DNA from: Caedibacter sp. 37-49
GTDB taxonomy: Bacteria; Pseudomonadota; Alphaproteobacteria; Caedimonadales; Caedimonadaceae
Length of the DNA: 34,532 nucleotides
Reading direction: 5' to 3'
Assembly: GCA_001898725.1 (NCBI GenBank)
Contig: MKUV01000056.1
Span: 1 to 34,532, forward strand
Part shown: positions 217 through 6,152 of the stretch, in pieces
How positions within the stretch are numbered: the stretch's first letter is position 1
Layout: each line of letters begins with the position of its first letter
The notes under the pieces: model-generated
Seen by the model: the letters and a program-made list of their open reading frames with translations, nothing else
What the model was told of the DNA's origin: nothing
Databases searched by the model: none
Program-made: the position numbers and the translations under genes

Positions 217-3200
217 TTAATTCATTATAAACTTTTTTGATTGAGACGCTTGCAGATCGATTAATTTGTTTTGAATTCTAATGATGTGAGAAGAATCTTT
301 TGGAAAATGAGTTTGAACAATTTGTAAAGCTTGTTCTAAATATTGAATCGCTTGAGGTTGAAAATCTTTTTTTAAATATAACTCTGCTAAGTATTCTAAA
401 GAGAGATAGCTTTCACTATACTTATAAAATTTAAATATATTTAAAGATTTAATAAGCCGCTTTTCAGCCTCCAACATTTTTCCTTCTAAAAGGTAAACTC
501 GCCCCAAACTTCTTAAAGTACGTGCCGTTTGGATATGATTTTCACCATAATTTTTTTCATATATTTCGAAACTCTTTTCGAGCAAAAGACGCGCCTTCTT
601 ATACTCTCCCATTTCGGTATGTAAAGCACCTAAATAAGCTAAAGAAGACGCAATATAAACATGGTTTTCTGGGAAATATTTGCGGCAAATAACAAGACTT
701 TGTTCAAGTAAAATTTTAGCTTTTTTATACTCACCTAAAGCTCTATAGGCATCACCTAAATAGCCAAGAACCCAAGCAACGCCCACGTAATCTTCAGAAT
801 GTTTTTTATAGATTGCAAGGCTTTGTTCAAGTAAAGCACAGGCTTGTTTATAGCTGCCTAATATAAGATAGGTATTCCCCAGATGAGATAAGACCCAAGC
901 ATGCACAATACTGTCATGTGAATGAGCTTGGTAAATTTCCAGGCTTTTCTCAAGCAAACTTCTTGCCTTTGAATAATCACCTAATCCTCTATAGATTATG
1001 CCTAAATAACCTAAAGCCCGGCCATTTCCAACATAGTTACCAGGATATTGAGTATAAATTGAAAGACTCTCTTCAAGTAAATTTTTAGCCTTTTCAAAAT
1101 CACCAAGCGTTCTATAAACATTTCCTAGATACATGAGAGCACGCGCGATCTTATGATGATTGTTGTGATAATCATTCCTTAGGTTTAAAAGGCTTTCTTC
1201 AAGAAGCTGCTTTGCTTTTACATAGTTACTTAAGTAATAATAGATACATCCCAGCACACTTTTAAGGCTATCCTTAATACGATTGCTTAGTAATTCATCA
1301 TGTTTTAAGAAAGCTTCACCTTGAGAAAGTAATAACTTCATCTGTAAAAAATCTTCTTTATCAAGTATTTCCGTTATATAGCTCTCTAACATATTAGCGA
1401 CTTTATCTAATAAAATGTTATCCTTTCTTAACGTTAAAGTTTTTTTAAGATAAGCGAGGCTTATTTCTTGCGTCGTGCGGTGAATAGAAAAAACTGGAAT
1501 CAAATTTCTATAAGTCTCATTAGCAATTAATGAATACTTATTTAAATGATAAAACAAACCATCTACTAAGGAATTGTCACCACATGTATCTAACAAAGAT
1601 TTGGGGATATTTTTGGGATCCAATAAACTAATTAATAAAAGTAATTTTTCAAAATTTTTCTGCGTATCAATAATTTTCTTTAAAGATAAAGTAATAATAT
1701 TATAACGCGTTTTCGTATAATCCGAAGCTTCCTTAAGGATATGTTCCTGCGTTTCGGCAAATTCTTGATTATAATTCATTAAATGCTTGAGATAGCCTTC
1801 TAAGGTAACATTCGTTGCTTTTAGATAATAAGCTGCCGTAGAGATATCTAAGGGAAACGGAGGAATATTATCTAAGAATTTTTTATAACCAATTTGAGAA
1901 TGATGGACATTCCCGATACGCATAATATTATTAAAAAGAGTTAATTTTTCTTTAGCGTTTAATTCCTTAATTTGAATGGTGTGGTTAATATAATTATTGT
2001 TTCCCAAATTATGGTCACGGCTTGTAATAATTATCTTACCCTTCCCCCAACTCTCAGGATCATAAGGGAAATATTTCTGAATATTTGTAAATTTTTCAAC
2101 ATTATCATATATTAAAAGCCATTCTGAAATTTCCTTTAATTTACTTTTCAAGAGAAGAATTATTTTCTTTTCTTTTTCTTGAGGGTTCTTAATTCCTTGT
2201 AGATCTCTTAAAATCTTTTTTTCTTCCTTTGTTTTGCACAATGCGTCAACAAGGTTTTCAAAAGAGTTAATTAAATTTTCTTTCGTATCTGCATTTATTT
2301 CCCAAATAAGATTTGCTTTTTGTAGACGTGCATATTGACGCGCAATGGTTGTTTTTCCTGAACCTCCCATTCCCACCAAAGAGATAACTTGAATGCCCTT
2401 CTTCTTGCTCAAACTTTCCTCAATTTGACTTAAAATGTGAGGACGAGAGAGAAGAATCGGTTCAGCTGGAATAGGGAGATCTGATCTTATAATATTCTTT
2501 GAAGGAAGTTTAATACGCTCTAATATACTTCCAAATTGATCATTACTTAGCAATAAAATAAAGCCACTACTAAATACTAACAAGAGTCCCACTAACCAAT
2601 TTAATTTCCACTTTTTAAAAGAATTCGTATTGATATTTTCTGGATGTTGCTGAACGTCTAAAGAAGAATTTGAAGTTTTTTTTATAAGAGGGTTCAGTTC
2701 CAAAGAAACTGAAAGTTCTTCATAATGTTTAATAAATTTTGAAACTGCACTTTCTAAATCGAGAGTCTTTAGCATTCTTTTTAAAAGTTCAAAAAATGAG
2801 AGATAATCATTTTCTTTGATTTCAAGAGTTACGATCTCTTTGTTATTATCTGTTGTCAGCTGTAAAAATTTTTCTTTTACATATCCGATTTCATCAATTT
2901 CATAGGTCGAAAAAGGGAAAAGAATGTAATCTGTTAAAAGTTGCCCTGACTTTTCATCTATTAACGGTTTATCTTTTTTTTCTTTTATAGATTCAGATAC
3001 AACGTTAAAGCCCGCAAGTTTTAGATAAGTCGCAAGGATTTGGTTTCTTTCTTCTGTGTTAAACTCTCCAGGAAGGTAAAGCAGTTTACAGGATGATTTG
3101 TCTTTTTTTATAAGAGCTGAAATTTCCTTCAAACATTCTCTGAACACAACCTCAATTCTTAAATTTGAGTAGTACTTTTTAAGTAATTGGACCTCTTGAG

Positions 3201-3444
3201 ATTTTTCAACAAAATCAACGATTGCCTCACGTGAATTACATTCAATCTTCATCATAATGTTGCGCACGTGATTTTCAACAGTTCTAGGGGAAATAGAGAG
3301 AAAAGAAGCTATTTTCTTAGTTGATTTTCCGTGTACCATAAAAGCGACAATATCAATTTCTCTCCAAGTAAATTTTATACCATTTATTGTTTCTAAATCT
3401 TTAGGGTAAATTTTCGGAAATAAATGTTTTTTTAAATTTTGCAT
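217..3444 (-). CDS. LuxR-type HTH / NB-ARC NTPase / TPR protein (STAND family)
   Basis: Predicted signal-sensing regulator of the STAND class, 1075 residues. Visible order: a LuxR/GerE-type helix-turn-helix at about residues 24-80 (KIASFLSISPRTVENHV), a poorly conserved linker, a hydrophobic stretch at 282-300, then an NB-ARC-like NTPase with P-loop GMGGSGKTT at 358-366, Walker B LLIYDNV at 443-449 and the sensor ITSRD at 473-477. A winged-helix segment has SIHRTTQE at 653-660, which resembles the MHD-like position of related proteins. About eight TPRs of 41-42 residues follow from 724 to 1060. In the family, TPRs bind a ligand, the NTPase switches, and an effector domain acts; here the effector would be DNA binding. 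A candidate promoter lies at 3497-3525; the ribosome site before the ATG is weak. Architecture is clear; ligand and targets are unknown. Confidence 0.9.
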   Translation of the reverse strand: MQNLKKHLFPKIYPKDLETINGIKFTWREIDIVAFMVHGKSTKKIASFLSISPRTVENHVRNIMMKIECNSREAIVDFVEKSQEVQLLKKYYSNLRIEVVFRECLKEISALIKKDKSSCKLLYLPGEFNTEERNQILATYLKLAGFNVVSESIKEKKDKPLIDEKSGQLLTDYILFPFSTYEIDEIGYVKEKFLQLTTDNNKEIVTLEIKENDYLSFFELLKRMLKTLDLESAVSKFIKHYEELSVSLELNPLIKKTSNSSLDVQQHPENINTNSFKKWKLNWLVGLLLVFSSGFILLLSNDQFGSILERIKLPSKNIIRSDLPIPAEPILLSRPHILSQIEESLSKKKGIQVISLVGMGGSGKTTIARQYARLQKANLIWEINADTKENLINSFENLVDALCKTKEEKKILRDLQGIKNPQEKEKKIILLLKSKLKEISEWLLIYDNVEKFTNIQKYFPYDPESWGKGKIIITSRDHNLGNNNYINHTIQIKELNAKEKLTLFNNIMRIGNVHHSQIGYKKFLDNIPPFPLDISTAAYYLKATNVTLEGYLKHLMNYNQEFAETQEHILKEASDYTKTRYNIITLSLKKIIDTQKNFEKLLLLISLLDPKNIPKSLLDTCGDNSLVDGLFYHLNKYSLIANETYRNLIPVFSIHRTTQEISLAYLKKTLTLRKDNILLDKVANMLESYITEILDKEDFLQMKLLLSQGEAFLKHDELLSNRIKDSLKSVLGCIYYYLSNYVKAKQLLEESLLNLRNDYHNNHHKIARALMYLGNVYRTLGDFEKAKNLLEESLSIYTQYPGNYVGNGRALGYLGIIYRGLGDYSKARSLLEKSLEIYQAHSHDSIVHAWVLSHLGNTYLILGSYKQACALLEQSLAIYKKHSEDYVGVAWVLGYLGDAYRALGEYKKAKILLEQSLVICRKYFPENHVYIASSLAYLGALHTEMGEYKKARLLLEKSFEIYEKNYGENHIQTARTLRSLGRVYLLEGKMLEAEKRLIKSLNIFKFYKYSESYLSLEYLAELYLKKDFQPQAIQYLEQALQIVQTHFPKDSSHIIRIQNKLIDLQASQSKKFIMN
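267..1275 (-). repeat. tandem TPR-coding repeat, about 8 units of 41-42 codons
   Basis: The 3' third of the LuxR/NB-ARC gene encodes near-regular units with consensus LGYLGxxYRxLGxYxKAxxLLExSLxIY. The central four or five units are the most alike (41 residues each), and the first and last are diverged. The period and the YLG/LLE positions resemble kinesin-light-chain-type TPRs. Similarity among the central units suggests fairly recent duplication or homogenisation, so unit number could vary between strains. Confidence 0.85.
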
Positions 3445-3666: not shown

Positions 3667-4065
3667 TTATAATGAATGTATAACCGTTGTAACAACCCCC
3701 CATATAGGAATTTGTTTAGTATCTTCTAAAGACAAGAACTCTATATGCGAGTAGTCAGTTGAAAGAATAATTTTTTGCTCGCTCTCAGTATAATTCCGAA
3801 TAGAGAGTTCTCCATCAATTTCAGCGATAACAATATCGCCTGACGTTGGCTTCGCACTGCGATCAACAACGAGTAAATCTTCTTTAAAGATCCCAGACTT
3901 CTTTAAGGCATCACTTCCAGCTCTTAGAAAAAAAGTGGCGATAGGATTCTTTATTAAATGCTCGTTAAGGTCAACTTTATCCGCAGGCAAGCGATGACCA
4001 TCTTCAATTGAGTATGACACTTCACTTGCAAGAGATTTATCTTTATTGGCATCCACTGAGGACAT
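3667..4065 (-). CDS. UmuD-like (LexA/S24 family) protein lacking catalytic residues
   Basis: 132 residues that align without gaps to the C-terminal two thirds of UmuD, from VDLNEHLI through DLLVVD, SGDIVIAEIDGE and the final WGVVTTVI. UmuD and LexA are Ser/Lys self-cleaving proteins of the SOS response; cleaved UmuD joins UmuC in translesion polymerase V. Here the UmuD motif SGDSM reads GSDAL, so the position of Ser60 is Ala53, and the Lys97 position is Arg90. The first 30 residues have no Cys-Gly or Ala-Gly cleavage pair. Self-cleavage is therefore unlikely. No umuC lies nearby. The start is supported by AAGGA about 7 bases upstream. It may be a decayed relic or a non-cleavable dimerising regulator; the conserved fold and intact frame favour some retained role. 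Confidence 0.8.
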   Translation of the reverse strand: MSSVDANKDKSLASEVSYSIEDGHRLPADKVDLNEHLIKNPIATFFLRAGSDALKKSGIFKEDLLVVDRSAKPTSGDIVIAEIDGELSIRNYTESEQKIILSTDYSHIEFLSLEDTKQIPIWGVVTTVIHSL

Positions 4066-4232
4066 AAAGTATTCCTTTAAACTACATTTCGAATTAACCT
4101 CTTATCAAGAATAATTATTTCTAAGGAATAATTCAAGGGACTTACTTTTTTGGATAATAACTTTAAAAAACATAATTATAATCTCTTAAATAACCTTGAT
4201 TTAGCGTTATAAGTCATCATACTGTAAGAACT

Positions 4233-6152
4233 ATGAAAACTCTCTCTTTCCCTTTACAACGTGTTTTACCTGATAATCATCCTGTTGCCCGTGTCCGCAG
4301 GTTATTGCTTGGACATCCTCTCAAAAGTTCATCCCAACACCAAGAGAGATTAGGCTTTTTTCTAGGATTACCCCTTTTAGCTGTGGATGCGCTCTCTTCT
4401 ATTGCTTATGCCACAGAAGAAATTTTAATTGCCCTTTCATTAGCTGGAAGTAATTTTATAAATTTTTCAACTTCTATTGCATTAGCAATTGTTGTTGTAT
4501 TAATGGCACTTATTGCTTCTTATCGCCAAACCGTTCAAGCTTACCCCGAGGGAGGCGGAGCCTATGTGGTCGCTCGACAGAATTTGGGTGTCTCTTTCTC
4601 TTTAATTGCAGCGTCTTCCCTTCTTATTGATTACGTTCTAACAGTTGCTGTTTCTATGACAGCAAGTGTTCGAGCTCTTTGTTCTGCTTTCCCCTATTTG
4701 CATGACTTTAAATTATCCTTGTGCTTTGTTGGAATCTGGCTCTTAACATGGATTAACTTAAGGGGTATTCGTGAGTCAGCTTATGCAGTAGCCTTCCCCG
4801 TGGGTGCTTTTATCCTTCTCATTATTTGCTTATGTATTGATGGTTTGTTTAAGACGAGTTTAACGTTACAAAGACCTTCTCATCTTTCGTTTGAGATTCT
4901 CTCTAACCTTGCAACCTTAACGATTATTTTACGTGCATTCGCGGGCGGATGTACTGCGATGACAGGAATTGAAGCCATTGCGAATGCCGGCACGATGCTT
5001 GCAAAACCCTGCTCAACAGTGGCACGCCAAATTCTGTTAGCGCTTGGGATTATTCTTGGGGGAACATTTCTTTCAATAACCGTAATTTCTCAAAATCTTG
5101 GTCTCGAACCAATAGCTTCGGAAAGTTTATTAAGCCAAATAACGCGTACGCTTTGGGGTGATGGACCTCTTTATCATACGCTTCAAATCTTGACAGCGAC
5201 CGTTTTATTCATGGCGGCAAATACAGTCTTTGCAGGGTTCCCTAAGTTAGGCGCTATTTTGGCAAGAGATGGTTGGCTTCCTCGTCAACTTGCGGCAATT
5301 GGGGATCGTCTTGTTTTCTCTAAGGGAATTTTATGGTTGGCTATTTTAGCGAGTATTCTAATCCTCATTTTTAGAGGAAATACGCATGCTTTAATTCCTC
5401 TATACGCAATTGGTGTGTTTAGCGCTTTTACGCTAAGCCAGATTGGGATGATCAAGTATTGGGCTCGCCATCTAAAAGAAACAACTCAATCCTTTTGGTC
5501 CTCAACAGGGTGCAAAATGGCTTTAAATACTTTTGGCGCCTGTTTAACGGGAATTGCTCTTCTTGTCACTTTTGAAGCTAAATTTTTTGAAGGCGCTTTT
5601 CTTGTCTTCCTTGCTGTGCCCATGATTATAGGATTATGTTGGGGTATAAAAAAGCACTATAATGAAATTGAACAGCAACTCTCTGTGGATATTGCCCTTG
5701 AAAAAAATATTCATAAAAACTTTAGCCAGTCAAAAACTTCAACGGCCGTTGTGCCTGTTTCTCGGGTTCACAAAGGAACCCTTGAAGCTTTAAGATTCGC
5801 ACGTCAAATGACAACGAATGTGAAGGTTATCCTTGTTAATATTTATGATACGTCTCAAGCAAAAGAGCAGTTAGAAGCTTTAGGGTGGGGACTTGATATC
5901 GTTATTTTAGAATCTCCTTATCGCTCAATTATTAGGCCTATTATTGAATATGTTCATAAGTTAGATGCTCAAAATGACGCCTCTTCAGTTCTTATCCTGC
6001 CTGAATTTATTCCTGAGCATTGGTGGCATAATCTTCTCCATAATCGTACGGCAGAAGCCATTGTACGTACGCTTTCTTGGAATGAGCACCTTCATAATCA
6101 AGCACGGATTATTATTAACGTGCCTTACTACCTTTCCACTAGTAAGCAATAG
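4233..6152 (+). CDS. APC-superfamily permease, KimA/YdaO-like (probable potassium or amino-acid transporter)
   Basis: 639-residue inner-membrane transporter with about 12 hydrophobic segments between residues 40 and 470 and a soluble C-terminal domain from about 501 to 639. The first helix carries AVDALSSIAYATEEIL (50-65), followed by YPEGGGAYVVA (104-114) and DYVLTVAVSM (133-142), which I recall from the YdaO/KimA branch of APC permeases. The tail has the VVPVSRVHKGTLEALRFAR, ESPYRSIIRP and WWHNLLHNRTA segments also seen in that branch; it resembles a UspA-like domain. KimA of Bacillus imports K+ and is controlled by c-di-AMP; whether that holds here cannot be told from sequence. Stands alone on the plus strand, with a weak ribosome site. 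Confidence 0.8.
   Translation: MKTLSFPLQRVLPDNHPVARVRRLLLGHPLKSSSQHQERLGFFLGLPLLAVDALSSIAYATEEILIALSLAGSNFINFSTSIALAIVVVLMALIASYRQTVQAYPEGGGAYVVARQNLGVSFSLIAASSLLIDYVLTVAVSMTASVRALCSAFPYLHDFKLSLCFVGIWLLTWINLRGIRESAYAVAFPVGAFILLIICLCIDGLFKTSLTLQRPSHLSFEILSNLATLTIILRAFAGGCTAMTGIEAIANAGTMLAKPCSTVARQILLALGIILGGTFLSITVISQNLGLEPIASESLLSQITRTLWGDGPLYHTLQILTATVLFMAANTVFAGFPKLGAILARDGWLPRQLAAIGDRLVFSKGILWLAILASILILIFRGNTHALIPLYAIGVFSAFTLSQIGMIKYWARHLKETTQSFWSSTGCKMALNTFGACLTGIALLVTFEAKFFEGAFLVFLAVPMIIGLCWGIKKHYNEIEQQLSVDIALEKNIHKNFSQSKTSTAVVPVSRVHKGTLEALRFARQMTTNVKVILVNIYDTSQAKEQLEALGWGLDIVILESPYRSIIRPIIEYVHKLDAQNDASSVLILPEFIPEHWWHNLLHNRTAEAIVRTLSWNEHLHNQARIIINVPYYLSTSKQ

Follow-up and report, generated by a model that had tools for sequence, protein, structure and literature searches.

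The window, meaning the whole stretch of 34,532 nucleotides analysed here (Caedibacter sp. 37-49, assembly GCA_001898725.1, contig MKUV01000056.1), carries on its reverse strand a short gene for a UmuD-like protein in which neither residue of the Ser-Lys catalytic dyad is present. This gene, its neighbours and related loci are listed in Table 1. The product of the downstream gene was assigned as a STAND-type regulator, and this gene adjoins the UmuD-like gene in three species. No umuC was found in the window, in agreement with the initial annotation; the umuC search of the genome matched only four other contigs (2, 8, 25, and 63). The term orphan, used in that annotation, is retained below for the gene and its product, although it holds only locally: genome-wide there are these four umuC genes, one of which is conserved without a umuD.

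Table 1. Features of the window and of related loci in other contigs and genomes
Feature	Sequence	Position	Strand	Basis or remark
Dyad-less UmuD-like protein gene, 132 aa, ATG start	window	3667..4065	-	ORF list; Peptidase_S24; UmuD' by sequence and model
Ala53 codon GCC, column of catalytic Ser60	window	3907..3909	-	alignment and codon reading
Arg90 codon CGG, column of catalytic Lys97	window	3796..3798	-	alignment and codon reading
Ser51, in place of Gly of the G-x-S-M motif	window	3913..3915	-	alignment
N-terminal arm, residues 1-31, without cleavage bond	window	3973..4065	-	sequence, model, column conservation
Downstream neighbour: LuxR-type HTH, NB-ARC and TPR protein, 1075 aa	window	217..3444	-	Pfam, synteny
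Divergent neighbour: amino-acid-permease family protein	window	4233..6152	+	Pfam AA_permease_2, synteny
Intergenic region upstream of orphan, without 22-bp palindrome	window	4066..4232	.	palindrome scoring
Operon-type umuD, overlaps umuC, Ala-Gly bond (TAGFPSPA)	contig 63			Val/Arg
Operon-type umuD, overlaps umuC, Ala-Gly bond (TAGFPSPA)	contig 2			Ala/Arg
Operon-type umuD, overlaps umuC, Ala-Gly bond (TAGFPSPA)	contig 25			Ser/Arg; its umuC shortened by a stop
umuD-like fragment	contig 59			Ala/Arg
Intact UmuDAb-like paralogue	contig 18			Ser/Lys, Ala-Gly, long N-terminus
UmuDAb-like gene	L005	1207-1815
UmuDAb-like gene	L020	1216-1815
UmuDAb-like gene	L021	1495-2094	-
UmuDAb-like gene	L016	1498-2118	-
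22-bp palindrome	L155	upstream of 4505	-
22-bp palindrome	L156; L002; L003; L004; L019
22-bp palindrome	L191	1501-1521
22-bp palindrome	L196	2371-2391

Peptidase_S24 (PF00717) was the sole Pfam domain match of the orphan protein (E 1.1e-13, 51.3 bits, cut-off 23.3). Residues 29-130 matched the E. coli UmuD' chain 1ay9 in a phmmer search (E 4e-15), and the best solved relatives were UmuD' chains. Against the NCBIfam UmuD model NF007621 the orphan scored 101 bits, under the cut-off of 110, and its two orthologues scored 104.4 and 100.3. The structural model had a mean pLDDT of 77.8 and a pTM of 0.68, with mostly low confidence in the arm, where residues 6-19 fell below a pLDDT of 50. It was closest to UmuD' (Foldseek E 5.2e-08 to 1ay9) and aligned with UmuD' 1umu over 103 residues at 3.1 A (VIA-align Z 15.6); a predicted fold shared in this way shows no function.

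The replacement of Ser60 by Ala and of Lys97 by Arg, as read in the initial annotation, was confirmed by alignment with 16 relatives, in which Ala53 and Arg90 occupied the two catalytic columns. The G-x-S-M motif has also lost its Gly and its Met, with Ser51 and Leu54 in their places. Ser51, two residues upstream of the Ser column, was conserved among the orphan orthologues. The annotation had named another Ser/Lys pair in the active site as a finding that would overturn it; no such pair was visible in the alignment, and Lys was absent at and next to the Lys97 column. An Ala-Gly or Cys-Gly pair was found neither in residues 1-31 of the orphan, as had been claimed, nor in the two orthologues. 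Because the dyad is gone, the protein would not be switchable by self-cleavage, and because there is no bond to cut it would not be switchable in trans either.

For comparison, the dyad columns were read in 113 homologous ORFs outside the genus, comprising 71 from the class sample, 4 from the order, and 38 from named genome contigs. The homologue sample was picked by similarity to UmuD and the genome-contig loci by short exact patterns. Of 95 places in the class search, the best 80 were read, which leaves aside the 15 with the weakest matches (E 1.1e-10 to 7.8e-9); duplicates (16 named) were dropped, which left 10 ORFs of the genus in addition to those just listed. The genome-contig set represents 38 of 39 loci, L074 having an incomplete frame, and P0001 also stands outside the counts. 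Both Ser and Lys were present in 108 of the 113 ORFs, one residue was missing in five, and both were missing in none; the motif Gly and Met were kept in 112. Judged from these sequences, the double loss in the orphan is more than chance.

The five single losses were Cys/Lys in three ORFs (L099, L107, and L109, from three genomes of one genus), Ala/Lys in one (L153, genome G207), and Ser/Arg in one (L148, genome G277, with the motif SDSL); at four of the five loci umuC lay within the fetched stretch. These losses appear to be independent events. Membership of L148 in the orphan's clade was considered and rejected, as in the tree it grouped (91/94) with a relative from its own family that has Ser/Lys, and for this reason its Lys-to-Arg change was counted as an independent loss, on a long branch.

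Orthologues were sought in the genus, for which genomes of three species (G000, G002, and G003) were compared. The orphan had an orthologue in both of the other species (66% and 62% identity), between the same two flanking genes, and Ala and Arg stood at the dyad columns in all three. The codons differed (GCC/GCA/GCT for Ala and CGG/AGA/CGA for Arg), so both residues have outlived synonymous change. The dN/dS calculation proposed in the initial annotation gave low pairwise values, namely 0.039, 0.046, and 0.081 by maximum likelihood (ML) and 0.114, undefined, and 0.127 by NG86; since dS was saturated in the G000 pairs, these ratios are approximate and their low level alone is meaningful. For the flanking genes, ML values were 0.045-0.084. 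The three orthologues agreed at 70 of 102 domain columns, 47 of these with synonymous differences, and at 10 of 30 ungapped columns of the arm; the arm start was partly conserved, with GKSLxS in two orthologues and KSL in all three. The orphan is thus under purifying selection. Plain decay of a duplicated umuD has a little in its favour, namely a truly decaying paralogue in the same genome (the contig 59 fragment) and orphan dN/dS values above those of the intact UmuDAb-like gene (ML 0.008-0.024). It was nevertheless rejected as very improbable and is already largely refuted by the frames that remain open in three species, the conserved position, the low dN/dS, and the invariant domain columns with their synonymous differences. 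Relatives with an intact dyad, which the annotation had taken as a sign of decay, were not found among the three orthologues. Its main proposal, a pseudoprotease that naturally lost the dyad and kept the fold, is supported by the shared Ala/Arg, the selection estimates, and the match of the model to UmuD'.

Including the orphan, six S24 UmuD-like places were found in the genome, and G003 contributed an additional Ser/Arg UmuD with an Ala-Gly bond, beside which umuC was not seen. Arg replaced Lys in all eight members of a genus-specific UmuD clade (92/96). In the UmuD tree, which was based on 102 columns and had unsettled bootstraps, the three orphans grouped together (100/95) as sister to the operon-type UmuDs of the genus (97/89). 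As all eight Arg-bearing UmuDs form one clade, Arg probably came first and the Ser column drifted later. The Ala-Gly bond was kept in four of the eight, three of which overlap umuC. In the alignment, the operon-type UmuD of G003 starts with KEGKNL, resembling the KEGKSL of the orphans, and the orphans are without the stretch that holds the cleavage bond; from this likeness and the missing stretch, we infer an internal loss in the orphans.

The intact umuC on contig 8, identified by its Pfam IMS domains, has no adjoining umuD. The same type of umuC was syntenic in G002 and G003, again with no adjacent umuD, and was spread over two contig ends in G003. In the UmuC tree, the umuD-less umuC of the three species was sister to the operon umuCs (100/99), a pattern that mirrors the UmuD tree. 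Among 10 genomes of the order, UmuC was present in five and a short UmuD (neither LexA nor UmuDAb-like) in the same five, although these represent few independent events because the positives come from two genera (three genomes and two genomes). In G002 the orphan was the sole short UmuD, and G004 had a UmuDAb-like protein and no UmuC, orphan, or short UmuD. The mirrored trees and the co-occurrence make the distant UmuC the likeliest partner of the orphan. As a separate observation, about 7 kb of G002 contig 28 and G003 contig 67 (L158 and L159), carrying a C-terminal umuC fragment, showed 100% protein identity, which points to recent transfer or assembly contamination.

The searches for umuC, lexA, and an intact umuD suggested in the initial annotation thus yielded four umuC genes, no LexA DNA-binding domain (PF01726; 0 of 3 genus genomes), and an intact paralogue. 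The latter, a UmuDAb-like S24 protein starting with HGGARKGAGRK and having Ser/Lys and Ala-Gly, was present in all three genus genomes and in G004. It was 43% identical to an Acinetobacter UmuDAb-type protein over its full length, N-terminal domain included, and its gene lay about 8 kb from recA in all three genus genomes. In a genus without LexA, this UmuDAb-like protein is the likely candidate to stand in for it.

A palindrome of 22 bp, TTGAT-N12-ATCA, whose best copies have GATC at the centre, was found before the three umuDC operons, before the umuD of G003, and, in G000 and G002, before the contig-8-type umuC. It scored 17.6-24.1 in leave-one-out tests, compared with maxima of 16.3 at the 99.9% level in random 250-bp sequences; these scores overstate independence, because the six training sites had been selected visually and by pattern and those of the three operons are copies of recent origin. 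Genome scans allowing at most one mismatch returned 25 rows (the two strands of one site counting as two) against 1 for the backwards pattern. Further copies stood just before the methyladenine glycosylase gene (tag) in G000 and G002, and before greA in G002 and G003. The palindrome is regarded as a candidate operator of a damage regulon. Its layout is similar to that of the Acinetobacter UmuDAb operator, described in PMC11332147 as TTGA/TCAA arms around a GTnAC core. It was absent upstream of the orphan in all three species (best scores 1.7, 3.6, and 5.9) and upstream of the UmuDAb-like gene, and none of five types of classic SOS boxes was found in 13 upstream regions. Should the palindrome prove to be an operator, regulation would extend to umuC and not to the orphan. 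Its presence before umuC and not before the orphan fits a constitutive subunit awaiting a regulated polymerase; an unrelated function would look alike.

The reading that we favour, with a probability of roughly one half, is that the umuDC system has been split and that an uncleavable UmuD'-like subunit works with a distant UmuC. An ancestral umuDC pair of the genus, already changed from Lys97 to Arg, would have been duplicated, and one copy would have been split, with umuD at the orphan locus and umuC elsewhere. The orphan would then have lost the stretch with the Ala-Gly bond, the dead site keeping Ala/Arg, and would presumably dimerise and act, constitutively and already activated, as the UmuD'-like partner of the distant UmuC. 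Licensing of Pol V would thereby be freed from RecA-driven UmuD self-cleavage and rest on transcription of umuC. Dimerisation, binding to UmuC, activation as opposed to inhibition, and the regulation by the palindrome are what we infer for the orphan. Counting against this reading are the retained arm, the missing linkage to umuC, the lack of the umuC palindrome upstream of the orphan, the score below the NCBIfam UmuD cut-off, the approximate dN/dS ratios, the small UmuD tree, and the few independent events behind the co-occurrence. A wider proposal is made tentatively, as possible and clearly less likely than the split itself: Pol V control may have moved from proteolysis to transcription throughout the genus, with LexA gone, the UmuDAb-like S24 repressor and the 22-bp operator governing umuC, umuDC, and tag, all UmuC-directed UmuD lineages devoid of Lys at the catalytic column, and the core UmuD serving as a dedicated pseudoprotease, uncleavable and separated from its umuC. 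Change of Lys to Arg at the equivalent LexA position has been described as giving an uncleavable protein (PMC5760743).

The initial annotation had offered two roles, a permanent full-length UmuD or a decoy; both are possible, and the uncleavable UmuD'-like partner of a distant UmuC fits better. As a decoy, the orphan would enter mixed dimers with the UmuDAb-like paralogue or the operon-type UmuDs and tune repression, RecA-stimulated cleavage, or delivery to ClpXP. This seems unlikely: the genus does combine the absence of the LexA DNA-binding domain with a conserved UmuDAb-like protein, UmuD subunits are reported to exchange and to form mixed dimers that are cut in trans or target the partner to ClpXP (PMC5342242), and dimerisation of UmuDAb is stated to matter for repression (PMC11332147), but the distribution of the orphan follows that of UmuC rather than that of the UmuDAb-like protein, which occurs without an orphan in G004, and the identity between the orphan and UmuDAb-like domains is just 41-43%.

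It is the arm that decides whether the orphan mimics UmuD' or UmuD. According to PMC3901139 and PMC5342242, uncut UmuD restrains UmuC in E. coli and UmuD' activates it, and uncleaved S60A UmuD strongly lowers mutagenesis; suppression of mutagenesis by uncleavable full-length UmuD is stated in the former. Given these effects, and because it retains some 31 arm residues whose start is partly conserved, unlike HumD and UmuD', the orphan could act as a checkpoint-like brake that permanently keeps UmuC or the replicase clamp non-mutagenic. We consider this less likely than the decoy: the arm is divergent, lacks the conserved UmuD arm sequence, and is poorly modelled, and the stretch surrounding the cleavage bond is absent, for which reasons the UmuD'-like role is favoured over a brake. 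Least likely of the three is a function unrelated to DNA damage tolerance, perhaps one exercised together with the LuxR/NB-ARC/TPR regulator next door. That gene lies on the same strand in all three species, and the dead superfamily member SipA binds its pilus-assembly partner without Ser or Lys (PMC4049620); the gaps between the orphan and this neighbour are 156-228 bp and poorly alignable, however, and neighbour order alone is weak evidence where both co-occurrence and the trees of UmuC point in another direction.

The closest precedent for an uncleavable partner is HumD of phage P1, which is UmuD'-like and made without cleavage, although its descent differs. Both HumD and the orphan are UmuD-like, have no cleavable bond, and have no umuC neighbour, and the database record of P1 HumD notes that it "functionally complements E. 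coli UmuD'". The phage-borne HumD has its start at the N-terminus of UmuD' (MGFPSPA), whereas the orphan is chromosomal with an unrelated arm; P1 HumD also keeps Ser and Lys in the alignment, where the orphan keeps neither. Assignment of the orphan to HumD was rejected, since it scored 62.7 bits against the cut-off of 120 in NCBIfam NF051876 (P1 HumD 221.5) and its N-terminus is not GFPSPA. In the alignment, dyad columns drift among HumD relatives, with Thr/Lys in N15 (gp26) and phiKO2, Thr/Met in HK639, and Tyr/Arg in Hafnia phage yong1. E. coli UmuD/UmuD' of DNA polymerase V shares the S24 domain and the UmuD' fold (predicted for the orphan), but the orphan lacks Ser60, Lys97, the Cys-Gly/Ala-Gly bond, and an adjacent umuC. 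Engineered UmuD S60A and UmuD 3A, the latter cited as a UmuD' mimic, lose self-cleavage because the arm or the active site was altered (PMC5342242); these are laboratory variants, while the double change in the orphan arose naturally and has become fixed in three species. Acinetobacter, as presented in PMC4807011 and PMC11332147, likewise has a LexA-less genome with diversified UmuD relatives, among them UmuDAb, and the orphan's genus has its own UmuDAb-like paralogue. Unlike UmuDAb, the orphan has neither the N-terminal domain (HGGAR..AGRK..EPT.V.RVP) nor an intact dyad, both of which UmuDAb needs and both of which are present in the paralogue L005, and unlike LexA it has no N-terminal DNA-binding domain. 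Streptococcus pyogenes SipA, whose structure 4n31 was among the structural matches of the orphan model, is also a dead member of the wider Ser-Lys superfamily, both residues having been replaced (PMC4049620), but it is a cell-surface protein of the signal-peptidase branch with a different function.

In the open-licence literature, no description of a natural dyad-less UmuD was found by title, none was found on UmuD with K97R, and a search for pseudoprotease with LexA gave no title on UmuD. Naturally uncleavable UmuD'-like proteins are already known from phages; for a chromosomal, genus-wide, dyad-less UmuD split from umuC, a precedent was not found in the same literature. In the textbook account, a checkpoint complex becomes a mutagenic polymerase through self-cleavage of UmuD. 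A natural UmuD lacking both dyad and bond across a whole genus, if true, would mean that this step is dispensable, and the UmuDs of the genus are ready-made proteins for asking which of the two gates UmuC, the arm or the cleavage. Dyad losses that arose independently elsewhere in the class suggest that further such cases are filed as peptidases.

Viral contigs were scanned with the operon-type UmuD and contained no relatives, and a plasmid search returned at least 5000 matching records, all below 60% identity. A YhgA-like putative transposase gene, for which a Pfam Transposase_31 search was made at L003, lies next to umuDC in two of its three copies (L002 2131-3030, reverse strand; L003 278-1177), and because of this adjacency the two copies may be mobile.
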